This document shows positions 32,894 to 38,332 of a stretch of 64,000 bases of DNA, in pieces. The notes under the pieces were generated by a model. The model saw only the letters and a list, made by a program, of their open reading frames with translations, made no database searches and was not told the origin of the DNA. Location: the NCBI GenBank assembly GCA_019090455.1, contig JAHRWA010000043.1:1-64000 (forward strand). The letters are read 5' to 3'. The DNA comes from Pseudomonadales bacterium. Lineage in GTDB: Bacteria; Pseudomonadota; Gammaproteobacteria; Pseudomonadales; DC-out160. The translations under genes were made by a program, and so were the position numbers. Within the stretch, counting starts at the first letter, position 1, and every line of letters starts with the position of its first letter.

Positions 32894-35800
32894 CTAGTTA
32901 TCCAGATTGATTTCTATCGTTTTATTAGGCTTAGAAAAAGATGATTTCTTTTGGGTTACCCCAATGGTATTTGATATTCCACTAATAAACTTTAACTGGG
33001 AAGATGCCGAGTTATTACTAATACCAAATCCAAGTTCTAAGGTGAAGTCTATACTGGTTAACTCTTCCGTATTCTTTTCAATAACGGATACTTGATCTAC
33101 CAACGGATAGGCACCACAACTTTCACCCGCTTGGCAAATAATGTCATCGTAGTCAATGTCGGATCCGCCTAACAGATAATAGGACCCTGGGGGAACGTTC
33201 TCAATTTGATAGCTATGTACTCCGTTGCCGACAGGTGTAGTCGTCGTTTGACCGACAAAGTCATAATTACTGTCGAGTAATAGCACCCATGTCACCCCTA
33301 AGTCTCCGCTGGAAGAGACTGTTCCTACGTTGGTGGAAATAACTACCTCCACTGCACTACCCGCCGCCGAGGTAAATCGGATTCGCTCGGAATAATATCC
33401 ATCTTGAAGGCCATTGCGGTCAATCGTCACAAGATAGGTTCCCAAATTATCTGAGTCGACTGTTTGAGCAGTGACTGAAAACCAGCTTTCGCTAGGGGGA
33501 GTGAGGGAAACTAAACCTGATGCTTCTCCCGAATTGATCAAGTCAAATTCTTTAGTCGTGCCGGAAGAACCGAAATTAACTGCAGATAGAGAGGTGCTAA
33601 GTACAGAAGGAAGCTGACCACCACCTGCTAGTCGACTTGCTTCTTGAACGGCCTTGAAAGCGTCGATAAAACCATGGCCATACGTATCATCTCGACCTAC
33701 AAGCCCAAGATCAGTCGTAATCGTACCGCTACTCAGCAATAAGTCAAAATCGTTGGGAGATAAATCCGTATGTACGGCCTTCATAAGAGCAACAATTCCT
33801 GCCATGTGAGGTGCTGCCATAGAAGTCCCTTGGTAGGCAACATATGCGGATTGACGAGTTCCGCTGGAATCATCAACTAAGCAGCTCCATACGCCATCGG
33901 AATATCGGTCTTGGTTTAGGTCGGCAGATGTGTCTCCCCCTGGTGCCGCGACATCAATTGCGGTACCGAAATTGGAGTAGGGTGCTCGCTCGTTGTTGTA
34001 ATCGGTGGCGCTAACAGAAACTACGCCTTCATAAGATGCGGGATAACTTAATTGTGAGGTGTTTTCGTTTCCAGCGGCCGCAATAATGATGACGCCTTCA
34101 TTACGGGCAGCGGTATAGGCTTCTTGCGCAGACTGTAAAAATGATCCACCACCCAAACTGAGGTTAATGATGTCTGCTCTCTTTGCAGGGATGGTCCCAC
34201 TGTCATTGGAGAGTCCTGCCGCATATCGTACACTTTGAATAATATCATTGGACGTTCCGCCCTCTACACCCAATACACGTAAAGGCATAATTTTGGCTCC
34301 CCAGGAAACGCCGGCTAATCCAAGGTTATTGTCAGTGCGGCTAGCAACGGTGCCGGCAACGTGGGTGCCATGCCAAGAGCTTTTGCCATTTTCCGTTGAG
34401 TCTCCTGGATCATCAGGGTTGGCATCGATACCGTCACCGTCGTTTGACATGGATGGGGTGCTAATAAAATCATAACCAGAAATAAGCTGACCCTGTAGAT
34501 CCTCATGAGCGAGAAACACGCCAGTATCGATGACAGCAACAATGACATCATCGCCTTGAGCGGGGGTTCCCGTGGTGATATCCCACGCTTGCTCTAATTT
34601 CATATTTTGATAATGCCACTGCACCGCGTAATGGGTGTCATTCGGTGTTGCCATGGCTTGAACAATATAGTTGGGTTCTGCGTATTCCACGTCATCTTGT
34701 TGACTCAATTTTTTTATCGCTAGTAGTGTTTTGAATTTTTGATAACTGCGAGCGTTGGTTGAGGCAACTTCTTGGATAAACTTGTTATCGGTTAAATTGG
34801 GATAGCTGCCTGAAGAAGAGCTGGTGCTATATGAACCTAGAGAAAGGGGTGAACCTAGAGAAAGGGAGTCGAATGTAACGAGTGTTGTTCGATTGCTGCT
34901 GGTATTTGAAGTGCTAGCGATGAAGCCGCTATCCTTCTTGGAAAAAGCGGATACATTTGTGAAGGGTTTGAATTTTACGATACTTTGGTTAGTCACAAAA
35001 TCGGCTTGAGTGGAAGGGGTACCGGTATAGTTGACGCCAACGTGCTCAAGCAAAAGCACATATTTCGAGATTCCGCTAAAAGCGGAAACTTCAATATAAT
35101 AGTCTCCATCGCTGGGGACTTGAATGGCTTCGAATTCGGTTACCGTGTTAGAATAAACGATTAAGTTTAAATCCATGTCCCACAAATAAAGATCAAGATC
35201 GCCTTGATAGCTACCGGTGAAATCAAAATCGACGACTTGCAGTGCGATAATTTGATCTTTTTGGAGGTGTACTTTGTAGACATCTATGTCATCCCCCTGC
35301 GTAGCAAAAATATGATCCTGATTGCCCGTACCTTCAAAACTGGAAAAACCGTGAACAATGGAATAATTTGGTATTTCCTGCGCGGTGGATACTGAGTTAT
35401 TGGGGATTCCTTGGGTTGTTGTAGGTTCGTTAGTATCATTATCCACTAATGTAAATGCCGCTGCCGTCACCATACCTGAGATAGAGCCATAGTTTATCGT
35501 AGTACAGATTAATTGGATGTCAGTAATATCTTCGCTCTGAATAATTCCTTGTGCGTTATTTAAGGTACAGTTTTGTCCTGTCGGTTGTGTGTTGATTTCT
35601 ACATTGTAGGCTTGGCCATTGGAATAGGGGCCTTGGAATGTAAATTGGCTACCCGTAGCGGTAAGAAGAATGTTTCCGTTTTGCAGCGTAATTGATTCCG
35701 TTAAGCCTGTGATCTGTCCTCGAATTTCGAAAGTTTCATCGACACAATTCACGATTACATTTGCAATGTTTTGATTTTGAATGACCCCCTGTCCATTAGA

Positions 35801-36055
35801 AACTGTACAAGTTTGCCCTTCGGGCTGTGATTCAATTGTTACGTTATAAACACTTCCAACAGCTAGTTGGTCATTGAAGGTGAAACTCGAGCCAGTGGCC
35901 AATAATACTTCCGAATTGTTTCTTATGCTTAACGACCCGGACAAGCCAATAATGGTCCCACCGGTGGAAAAGGTTGGATTGTCCGGGTCGCCGCTACCGC
36001 CGCAACTGATGAGTAAGGCGGTAACGAACAATAAAGATAGTTTTAGATGATTCAT
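32894..36055 (-). CDS. Secreted subtilisin-like (S8) protease lipoprotein
   Basis: A 1,053-residue exported protease. FVTALLISCGGSGDPDNP gives a lipobox. Residues 30-190 carry two copies of a roughly 75-residue beta domain (GQTCTVSNGQGVIQNQNIAN and GQNCTLNNAQGIIQSEDITD mark each). Residues about 235-345 form a PPC-like prepeptidase domain (DDIDVYKVHLQKDQIIALQV). Residues about 500-780 are the S8 domain with intact catalytic residues: Asp in VAVIDTGVFLAHEDL, His in SSWHGTHVAGTVAS, Asn in IIAAAGNEN, Ser in YQGTSMAAPHMAGI. A beta-rich C-terminal region follows. It probably digests extracellular protein. An 18-bp in-frame duplication lies at 34832-34867. The start lies about 95 bases from a CCTAGAA array. 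Confidence 0.93.
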   Translation of the reverse strand: MNHLKLSLLFVTALLISCGGSGDPDNPTFSTGGTIIGLSGSLSIRNNSEVLLATGSSFTFNDQLAVGSVYNVTIESQPEGQTCTVSNGQGVIQNQNIANVIVNCVDETFEIRGQITGLTESITLQNGNILLTATGSQFTFQGPYSNGQAYNVEINTQPTGQNCTLNNAQGIIQSEDITDIQLICTTINYGSISGMVTAAAFTLVDNDTNEPTTTQGIPNNSVSTAQEIPNYSIVHGFSSFEGTGNQDHIFATQGDDIDVYKVHLQKDQIIALQVVDFDFTGSYQGDLDLYLWDMDLNLIVYSNTVTEFEAIQVPSDGDYYIEVSAFSGISKYVLLLEHVGVNYTGTPSTQADFVTNQSIVKFKPFTNVSAFSKKDSGFIASTSNTSSNRTTLVTFDSLSLGSPLSLGSYSTSSSSGSYPNLTDNKFIQEVASTNARSYQKFKTLLAIKKLSQQDDVEYAEPNYIVQAMATPNDTHYAVQWHYQNMKLEQAWDITTGTPAQGDDVIVAVIDTGVFLAHEDLQGQLISGYDFISTPSMSNDGDGIDANPDDPGDSTENGKSSWHGTHVAGTVASRTDNNLGLAGVSWGAKIMPLRVLGVEGGTSNDIIQSVRYAAGLSNDSGTIPAKRADIINLSLGGGSFLQSAQEAYTAARNEGVIIIAAAGNENTSQLSYPASYEGVVSVSATDYNNERAPYSNFGTAIDVAAPGGDTSADLNQDRYSDGVWSCLVDDSSGTRQSAYVAYQGTSMAAPHMAGIVALMKAVHTDLSPNDFDLLLSSGTITTDLGLVGRDDTYGHGFIDAFKAVQEASRLAGGGQLPSVLSTSLSAVNFGSSGTTKEFDLINSGEASGLVSLTPPSESWFSVTAQTVDSDNLGTYLVTIDRNGLQDGYYSERIRFTSAAGSAVEVVISTNVGTVSSSGDLGVTWVLLLDSNYDFVGQTTTTPVGNGVHSYQIENVPPGSYYLLGGSDIDYDDIICQAGESCGAYPLVDQVSVIEKNTEELTSIDFTLELGFGISNNSASSQLKFISGISNTIGVTQKKSSFSKPNKTIEINLDN
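34832..34867 (-). repeat. 18-bp in-frame tandem duplication inside the protease gene
   Basis: TGAACCTAGAGAAAGGGG (34832-34849) is followed by TGAACCTAGAGAAAGGGA (34850-34867). On the coding strand it gives a repeated SLSLGSPLSLGS-type segment in the Ser-rich linker before the S8 domain. Confidence 0.85.
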
Positions 36056-36483: not shown

Positions 36484-37632
36484 ATGTCTCAGTCAGCAGT
36501 AAAAGTATTAATTATTGATAAAGAAGAAAAGAACCTCGAGGCTTTAGAAATGCTATTGGAGAAGCATTATATTGTCAGCAGTTTGTGCGAAAGTTTGAAT
36601 TGTGTGGAGCATATCCGAAACACTCGGCCAGATATCGTTATTCTCAACCCCATCATGTATGGATTGAATCTTGCTGAAGTCTGTCAAGCGGTAAAGGAAG
36701 ATACTGATCATCCGGGGCATGTGCTGTTTATCAGTGATTTTGGTTCAGCGGACGATGCAATATGGGCTTACAAGGTAGGGGCAGATGATTATATAAAATG
36801 GCCATTTAATAAAGAGTTGGTATTGGAAAAAATTGCGAGCCAAGTAGAAAGTCGGGTCTTCCATAAGGCTGTGGCTTCCGAGGCTGACGAGGCAAAACAA
36901 ATTGCAATCACGGCGATGCGCTCCACCAGTGAATTGGGTAAAGTGATGAGCTATATCATGGCGCTTCCCGATTGCCATGATTATGATGAGTTAGCGATAG
37001 AACTGATGACCGCCATCGAAGGGGTGGGGCTGGCACCGCAAATTCAATTTCGAACCAATCAAGGGTCGATGAACTATCGATGTGAGAACACCTCTTTAGA
37101 GGCCCAGATGATGAGCGACACATCAACATCTGATAAAATTGCCGTATTTGGAGACACTATTATCATTAATGGTAAAACGGTATCTGCTTTAGCGACGACT
37201 TTACCTGGGGTCCATGTGAATAAAGATGTGTGTAGGGATAATCTAGTGGTTATGTTGAATGCAGCTGATAGTCGTCTACAAACTTTGATTGCTCAGCAAG
37301 AAATTGAGAGTCTTAGATCTTCCACAATTGATGCGTCCTTGGAAACGACTGAACTTGAAATGAAAAAGGTAAATCAAAAGTTTGAAACTTATACACATGA
37401 TATGTGGCAAAGTTTAGATCACTTAAAGCTAGAGATTCAAAACATGTTTATGTCAATATCTCTGGAGCACGAGCAGGAAGAATATATCTTAAATATTATC
37501 GACAGGCATTCCACTGAAATCCATGAATCGGATGCATTAAAGAATGATATCGAGGCCGCTTTCACTAAAATTAGTTTCTACATGCAAACCCTAAATACCC
37601 CTTCATCGTCTAACGCTAAAAATGAGCTTTAG
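36484..37632 (+). CDS. Protein with degenerate receiver (pseudo-REC) domain
   Basis: A 382-residue cytoplasmic protein. Residues 5-120 have the CheY-like receiver fold (VKVLIIDKEEKNLEALEMLL, VGADDYIKWPFNKELVLEKI). The phosphoacceptor position, usually LLD in DLVLLDIMMPG, is Asn55 in DIVILNPIMYG, and the conserved KP lysine position is Trp106. Ser84 replaces the usual Thr. Aspartate phosphorylation is therefore unlikely. Residues 145-260 form an unrecognised domain. Residues 265-310 look like a coiled coil (IAQQEIESLRSSTIDASLET), with a helical tail. There is no DNA-binding or enzymatic output domain I recognise. The partner may be a sensor or scaffold outside the window. Confidence 0.8.
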   Translation: MSQSAVKVLIIDKEEKNLEALEMLLEKHYIVSSLCESLNCVEHIRNTRPDIVILNPIMYGLNLAEVCQAVKEDTDHPGHVLFISDFGSADDAIWAYKVGADDYIKWPFNKELVLEKIASQVESRVFHKAVASEADEAKQIAITAMRSTSELGKVMSYIMALPDCHDYDELAIELMTAIEGVGLAPQIQFRTNQGSMNYRCENTSLEAQMMSDTSTSDKIAVFGDTIIINGKTVSALATTLPGVHVNKDVCRDNLVVMLNAADSRLQTLIAQQEIESLRSSTIDASLETTELEMKKVNQKFETYTHDMWQSLDHLKLEIQNMFMSISLEHEQEEYILNIIDRHSTEIHESDALKNDIEAAFTKISFYMQTLNTPSSSNAKNEL

Positions 37633-37762: not shown

Positions 37763-38332
37763 ATGGGAAATCAAACGTTAACCGAGGCGGAAATAGTTGA
37801 GTTTGAAGATTTTATTCAAACAGAGGAGTTGATTGACGCTCACGATTACTACGGCACTCATGGGTTTATCTCTGGATTGGCAGTAAGTCCAGTCGAAATC
37901 CCCGATGCAGCTTGGTTAGCGATTTTACTTGATGTCGATGAAGAATCCATTTCGAAACCAGAATTTACAAAAGTGGGTGAAACATTAATAAAATTGAAAA
38001 AAGCGATTGAATACTCGCTTTATCACAGTGAAAAGATGGTTCTTCCCTGTCCGTTAAGATTGTCCCCTAAGCCTGACGAATCTGCCTTACGAAGTTGGGC
38101 CATTGGATTTATGGAGACTGTCTTCCTGGAAGAAGATAGCTGGTATAACGTCAACGAAGAGACTGTCGCACAATTGCTATTGCCTATGATTCTGGCTTCG
38201 GGATTGCACGAGGAGCAAGAAATCTTAAAAATGGAGCGAGACCCAAAACTGGGCCAAGCCATTTTACTCCAAATACCGGAGGTTATCATCGATCTCTATA
38301 TATTGTATCGTTCCGGTAACGCGCCCGAATAA
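37763..38332 (+). CDS. UPF0149 (YgfB/YecA) family protein
   Basis: A 189-residue cytoplasmic helical protein. The family N-terminus reads IDAHDYYGTHGFISGLAVSP, and the middle has ALRSWAIGFMETVFLEED, both typical of UPF0149. Family members such as YgfB act as regulators in Pseudomonas; the molecular role here is unknown. No SEC-C zinc tail is present, so it is YgfB-like in layout rather than full-length YecA. AGAGGC lies about eight bases before ATG 37763. Confidence 0.85.
   Translation: MGNQTLTEAEIVEFEDFIQTEELIDAHDYYGTHGFISGLAVSPVEIPDAAWLAILLDVDEESISKPEFTKVGETLIKLKKAIEYSLYHSEKMVLPCPLRLSPKPDESALRSWAIGFMETVFLEEDSWYNVNEETVAQLLLPMILASGLHEEQEILKMERDPKLGQAILLQIPEVIIDLYILYRSGNAPE

Follow-up and report, generated by a model that had tools for sequence, protein, structure and literature searches.

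What does a receiver domain do once the aspartate that should take the phosphate is missing? How such pseudo-receivers switch is termed a mystery in the abstract of a 2025 review (PMC12632262), and the question is raised here by one gene in a 64,000-nucleotide stretch of DNA from a Pseudomonadales bacterium (hereafter the window; contig JAHRWA010000043.1, positions 1 to 64,000, forward strand). An earlier note, made from the letters alone, had seen in this gene a receiver with Asn and Trp in place of the phosphoacceptor Asp and the conserved Lys, followed by a novel central domain and a coiled coil, and had proposed a phosphorylation-independent scaffold or sensor. We confirmed the open reading frame at 36484-37632 of the plus strand, where it encodes 382 amino acids (Table 1).

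Table 1. Features of the window gene and its downstream neighbour (positions are those of the window)
Feature	Position	Strand	Remarks
Whole gene, 382 aa, pseudo-receiver, GAF-like and helical hairpin protein	36484..37632	+	
Receiver (REC) domain, residues 6-120	36499..36843	+	Pfam Response_reg 8-117; VIA Z 18.7 to 3crn_A
D12 (kept) and K13 (in place of the second acidic residue)	36517..36522	+	
N55-P56, Asn at the phosphoacceptor slot, then Pro	36646..36651	+	Pro in all 11 subfamily members (8 NP, 3 DP)
S84, kept Thr/Ser slot	36733..36735	+	11/11 in the subfamily
Y103, K-3 aromatic of Y-T coupling, kept	36790..36792	+	Tyr or Phe in 11/11 of the subfamily
W106 in the slot of the conserved Lys; among members read, seen in the window species alone	36799..36801	+	
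Long linker helix, residues 110-163	36811..36972	+	AlphaFold2 model
GAF-like domain, compact, residues 164-246; includes the subfamily-invariant Cys164 and Cys200	36973..37221	+	Model, VIA-align
Long helix leaving the GAF-like domain, residues 247-324	37222..37455	+	AlphaFold2 model
Hairpin turn with L327..Q331-E332 and second helix 329-371	37456..37596	+	Model, 96-row alignment
UPF0149-family gene, neighbour kept in sister species	37763..38332	+	69.8% identical

The receiver and its active site

The protein has a recognised receiver domain. Pfam Response_reg covers profile positions 1-110 of 111 with 49.8 bits (cut-off 30.2), and the domain superposes on 3crn_A over 124 aligned residues at 1.6 Å, in agreement with the earlier view that the fold is well kept. 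We read the active site in 96 aligned family members, a sample weighted to high scores (chosen regions and loci returned by searches). From 107 family matches we dropped 12 that were shorter than 340 aa or whose score did not exceed 120 bits, which left a 95-row readout; the 96-row set is this readout minus L007, L019 and L139, which have no receiver, plus four subfamily rows. The phosphoacceptor slot holds Asp in 69 of the 96 and Asn in nine; the complete site is present in 45. Asn55 (codon AAC, 36646-36648) falls in this column and Trp106 (TGG, 36799-36801) in one where 62 of 96 members have Lys, so both substitutions had been placed correctly, and no Asp came to light at the true phosphoacceptor position. 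Beyond what had been noticed, the second acidic residue is also gone; three of the five active-site slots (K13, N55, W106) are changed, with D12 and S84 kept. Tyr59 occupies D+4 (Pro in 44 of 96) and Leu63 occupies D+8 (Gly in 52 of 96). With a receiver fold, no Asp at slot 55 and other active-site residues missing, the domain would, on sequence grounds, count as a pseudo-receiver, or aspartate-less receiver.

The window protein belongs to a subfamily of 11. Profile A4, built from seven subfamily members, was run on 293 genomes, scoring no more than six candidates in each. These 11 all reached E 3.7e-115 or lower, and no other candidate did better than 1.1e-88. They form one clade both against 11 chosen outgroup rows (support 100/99) and in the 96-row tree (SH-aLRT 98), each tree being built from C-terminal columns only. 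Asn is found in three subclades, {window, L011}, {L058, L149, L166} and {L128, L150, L165}, spread over two bacterial families, and Asp in {L002, L057, L092}. The best tree splits the Asn members; a constraint joining them, that is, a single origin of Asn, was not rejected (p-AU 0.066). One Asn-type sequence, L166 (G273:C93), has an early stop and a C-terminal end unlike that of its close relatives.

The homologues show the asparagine to be conserved and the tryptophan not. Since eight of the 11 subfamily members carry Asn55, its presence is not chance; in the 85 rows outside the subfamily Asn occurs once, in the degenerate receiver of L121. Trp106 is seen in one of 95 rows, and the other ten subfamily members have Lys there. 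L011, the 69% identical orthologue from the only other species examined of the genus and family, has K13 and N55 together with Lys106, its codon AAG being two base changes from TGG. We therefore rejected Trp106 as a defining trait, and the weight first placed on it was mistaken. The pocket has not been wholly discarded, as S84 and Y103 are kept, seven of the eight Asn members keep the Lys, and L058 retains both acidic residues and the Lys, with Asp to Asn as its sole change. At the second acidic slot all subfamily members other than L058 are non-acidic.

The receiver is also the best-conserved part of the protein. The orthologue group numbers just two sequences, the window gene and L011. Across the 115 codons of the receiver they are 80.9% identical, falling to 61.0% across the 82 codons of the GAF-like domain; the linker (43 codons) reaches 62.8% and the hairpin (125 codons) 68.8%. 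Synonymous sites have reached saturation (pS 0.80-0.86); for the receiver, pS is 0.81 and pN 0.11, indicating purifying selection. An Asp-less receiver that is better kept than its GAF-like neighbour is, therefore, not decaying and appears to be in use, most likely, we infer, as an interaction surface.

The GAF-like domain, the hairpin and their family

The full-length AlphaFold2 model (64 family rows as input; mean pLDDT 89.4, pTM 0.59) lays the chain out as receiver (1-109), helix (110-163), mixed domain (167-239), helix (247-324), turn and helix (329-371). At E up to 1, Pfam matched only Response_reg and GldB_lipo in the window protein, with no GAF model and no DNA-binding output domain; HisKA and HATPase_c were likewise absent by Pfam, and by this measure the protein is not a histidine kinase.

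A separate model of residues 143-262 (pLDDT 89.9, pTM 0.84) resembled 4g3k_B (VIA Z 11.7, 109 aligned, 2.6 Å), the GAF domains of NifA and PDE2A (Z 11.3) and that of KdpD (Z 10.8). Foldseek gave no match to the isolated model at E 0.001 or better, its best being a weak one to a LuxR-type ligand-binding domain (E 5.5e-3); the GAF assignment thus depends on VIA-align and on the position of the domain, which directly precedes HisKA and HATPase_c in the kinases L107, L123, L030 and L139. A receiver stands in front of it in L107 and L123, and none by Pfam in L139 and L030. Among the best 25 of the 45 Pfam families listed for 64 members there is no GAF family; the Pfam receiver is found in 62 of the 64. 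The central domain is, therefore, predicted to have a GAF-like fold, and we rejected a novel fold; what survives of the claimed novelty is the want of a Pfam GAF match.

The coiled coil with no known output fared better, and is conserved across the family, where it is predicted to fold into a helical hairpin bearing a QE motif. Over the 96 rows the slot of L327 is Leu in 88 and Met in eight, and P241, D252, Q331 and E332 are kept in 96, 93, 89 and 94 rows, respectively, against 45 with an intact receiver site. As judged from sequence, what stays constant across the members is the pairing of GAF-like domain and hairpin, to which the receiver is added intact, altered or not at all. We also considered homology of the hairpin to HisKA, as in a pseudo-kinase, and found no support (profile-profile probability 0.9% over 12 columns). 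In the family the GAF-like domain ends with a GRxKD motif, whose Gly (slot 248, kept in 87 of 96 rows) is missing from the window protein, so that its ligand binding may have drifted as well. For the invariant cysteines of the subfamily, the Cys200 column is misaligned in the wide 96-row alignment, and the subfamily count of 11/11 is the usable figure.

The family appears to be large and undescribed; we found no description among the papers listed, which is no proof of absence. With the window genome counted in each case, a C-terminal profile picked it up in 46 of the order's 244 genomes (E 0.001), in 25 of 369 of a class draw and in 13 of 398 of a phylum draw (both at E 1e-10). All 16 members from outside the order, taken as best fetched matches, have a complete site (15 DDDSK and one EDDSK, L182), so loss of the site looks derived within the order. 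The window genome itself holds at least five other full-length members, matching over most or all of their length: L002 (29% identical), L003 (28%), L004, L005 and L006. Four have Asp and Lys, and L002 is without the second acidic residue. A further paralogue, L007, has no receiver. A scan of genome contigs confirmed two of 29 stretches, and in both the match was confined to the receiver. Searching plasmids with the intact paralogue L003 returned 4563 records, all below 60% identity and 26% identical at the best places; the best ten of the 4563 look like generic response regulators.

Other receiver states were seen among the members. A group of 28 rows in the 96-row tree (for example L056, L059, L062, L073 and L081) has largely degenerate receivers and keeps the GAF-like domain and hairpin. 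L007, L019 and L051 carry an N-terminal coil-like stretch, with no Pfam receiver before the GAF-like domain (L019 by eye), and L006 (own genome C4:104295-105203) and L016 have His at the phosphoacceptor slot. Outside the class, in the same phylum, G685:C13:57319-58563 gave two adjacent family matches, each with a 545-aa frame, possibly a member and a kinase, as at L107.

Gene neighbourhoods

No kinase partner was seen beside the window gene, and none of its neighbours was recognised as a signalling gene. Two kinase queries (E 1e-15) matched nothing in the window other than the window gene itself. The downstream UPF0149, methyltransferase and enoyl-CoA hydratase-like genes keep their order in the sister species, which has one extra gene between the first two. 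We considered and dropped a defence function, there being no PADLOC match. The minus strand at 32894-36055 encodes a 1053-aa subtilisin-like protease with two tandem repeats of about 75 residues near the N-terminus, seen by eye; we take the motifs around its catalytic residues to be the usual subtilisin ones.

Kinase-like stretches lie within 2 kb of 14 of the 45 intact members, in contrast to 4 of the 51 others (Fisher p 0.004, with kinship ignored and flanks often shorter than 2 kb). The kinases L107 and L123, from two genomes of one genus, are 46 and 34 bases, respectively, from an intact-receiver family member, and the window genome encodes a kinase, L030, with the same GAF-like domain. 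Among Asn-type members, L128, L149 and L166 have a kinase gene within 2 kb, and the window protein is kin to kinase-linked members. L058, L149 and L166 lie near a YfiR-like gene and a CHASE8-HAMP-HisKA-HATPase-REC gene (Pfam on the L058 copies, BLAST for the relatives), and L058 and L166 adjoin flagellin. L128 comes after a kinase and a lone receiver, a pair absent around L150 and L165 in the stretches read. Two intact-receiver family genes, L130:2950-3846 and L142:2832-3737, overlap a REC-GGDEF diguanylate cyclase gene by 12-16 bases.

The intact-receiver paralogue L003 (L086:7832-9007, own genome C75) stands in a long flagellar cluster, between what we take to be flhB- and flhA-like genes, as presumably does L012 of the sister species; among the papers listed, none was relevant to a regulator in such a cluster. 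L006 is near genes that we recognised by name as presumably cheB- and cheR-like, and also near a 962-aa gene, with one gene between.

Possible mechanisms and known systems

The best explanation, which we hold with middling confidence, is a phosphorylation-independent pseudo-receiver fixed to a GAF-hairpin module. The window protein would have left phosphorelay chemistry, its receiver keeping the fold and the interaction faces while being held in one chemical state by N55, K13 and W106. A long helix would join this receiver to the compact GAF-like domain and then to the hairpin, which most likely dimerises the protein. The input might be a ligand or redox state sensed by the GAF-like domain, or it might arrive through regulated binding at the receiver face; in either case it would reach a partner protein through altered dimer geometry. 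The partner would probably be a family paralogue or a kinase that shares the GAF-like domain. For the family as a whole, the simplest mechanism would be a dimer geometry set by the GAF-like domain, with phosphorylation added in intact members; in the window protein the receiver would supply a fixed face to the dimer. The phosphorylation independence already proposed fits the loss of three slots, the recurrence of Asn in three subclades, the purifying selection on the receiver and the lack of a kinase match elsewhere in the window (two queries, E 1e-15). Against the best explanation speak the pocket residues that are still in place, the small orthologue group of two sequences, the possible drift of ligand binding and the kinase genes close to the Asn-type relatives L128, L149 and L166. 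Scaffold and sensor are both possible, and the modelled GAF-like domain leans towards a sensor and dimeriser.

An attractive, putative extension of the dimer mechanism is that the hairpin pairs the window protein with phosphorylatable paralogues, or with a REC-GAF-kinase, thereby making it a fixed-state subunit, a dominant inhibitor or a coincidence detector. We regard this as a real possibility, though an unlikely one. The paralogues with Asp and Lys in the same genome, the domain shared with L030, and the close spacing of an intact member and a REC-GAF-HisKA-HATPase gene in the L107 and L123 genomes all speak for it, as does the precedent of BldM/WhiI heterodimers (PMC12632262); however, the window gene adjoins none of these paralogue or kinase genes. 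An improbable alternative is a thiol switch, in which disulfide formation, or the binding of a metal or cofactor, at Cys164, Cys200 or both takes the place of phosphorylation. The two cysteines are invariant in the subfamily, and RitR, whose Glu9/Lys10/Asn53 (PMC4395418) is almost the D12/K13/N55 of the window protein, is switched by a linker disulfide according to PMC12632262. The RitR cysteine, however, sits in the linker and not in a GAF domain, and the three Asp-type members carry the same cysteines, which therefore do not track the loss of Asp.

We considered it very improbable that the gene is a relic, left to drift when a duplicated response regulator lost its kinase. The window species has lost a further slot (W106) and part of the GRxKD motif, and many other family members have largely degenerate receivers, as drift would have it; yet the frame is full-length in both species, the receiver is its best-conserved part with pN far below pS, and the next downstream genes keep their order in the sister species, apart from the extra gene. 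Least probable of all is that the receiver is still phosphorylated or becomes so, either by deamidation of Asn55 to Asp or through another residue that takes the phosphate. A Pro after Asn disfavours the succinimide route of deamidation, and Pro follows Asn in all eight Asn members; the second acidic residue is gone and, in the window protein, the Lys too. The reversion of Asn to Asp in a receiver, cited in PMC4395418, is the point in favour.

Beyond the fixed pseudo-receiver on its GAF-hairpin module, we put forward, as a rather doubtful reading, that the whole family forms combinatorial switches: a constant GAF-like/hairpin module with receivers that are repeatedly fixed, paired with phosphorylatable sisters or same-GAF kinases, the window protein being one fixed subunit. 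If this were so, one module would give a cell a combinatorial set of switches. Nature has already varied the receiver on that module, which in different members is intact, Asn-type, His-type, largely degenerate or missing, and several of these states occur within one genome; the role of an unphosphorylatable receiver is therefore testable by domain swaps between sisters, and L003 in its flagellar cluster is a starting point for a phenotype.

The best full-chain Foldseek match is a dual-sensor histidine kinase (6oaq/6ob8; E 1.3e-9, 322 columns), and residues 135-296 of 6oaq_B match the GAF-like model (VIA Z 9.7). Unlike the window protein, these structures are titled histidine kinase, and the whole chains do not superpose (rmsd 12.8, TM 0.31). 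In its active site the nearest described case is RitR of Streptococcus pneumoniae, an aspartate-less receiver that binds DNA (PMC4395418). The two share an Asn in place of the phosphoacceptor, a Lys in place of the second acidic residue and one acidic residue that is kept; in contrast to RitR, the window protein continues into a GAF-like domain and hairpin with no DNA-binding Pfam match, so that by sequence it would share the Asn of a RitR-family protein and not its output domain. In architecture the nearest are the archaeal REC-PAS-GAF and REC-GAF regulators without an output domain, for which PMC5847659 proposes dimerisation as the output. They too combine a receiver with a ligand-type domain and no obvious output; unlike the window protein, they are archaeal, have a Pfam-recognised GAF and are expected to dimerise on phosphorylation. 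The bacterial pseudo-receivers of Bourret et al. (2025; PMC12632262) number 20 examples, all but two orphans, and a word search of its main text gave no occurrence of 'GAF' or 'coiled coil'. Like these, the window protein has a receiver fold without the full active-site set, whereas here the loss lies within one paralogous family with a shared GAF-like/hairpin module. Asp-less receivers are thus already known, and this family is a variant setting for them.
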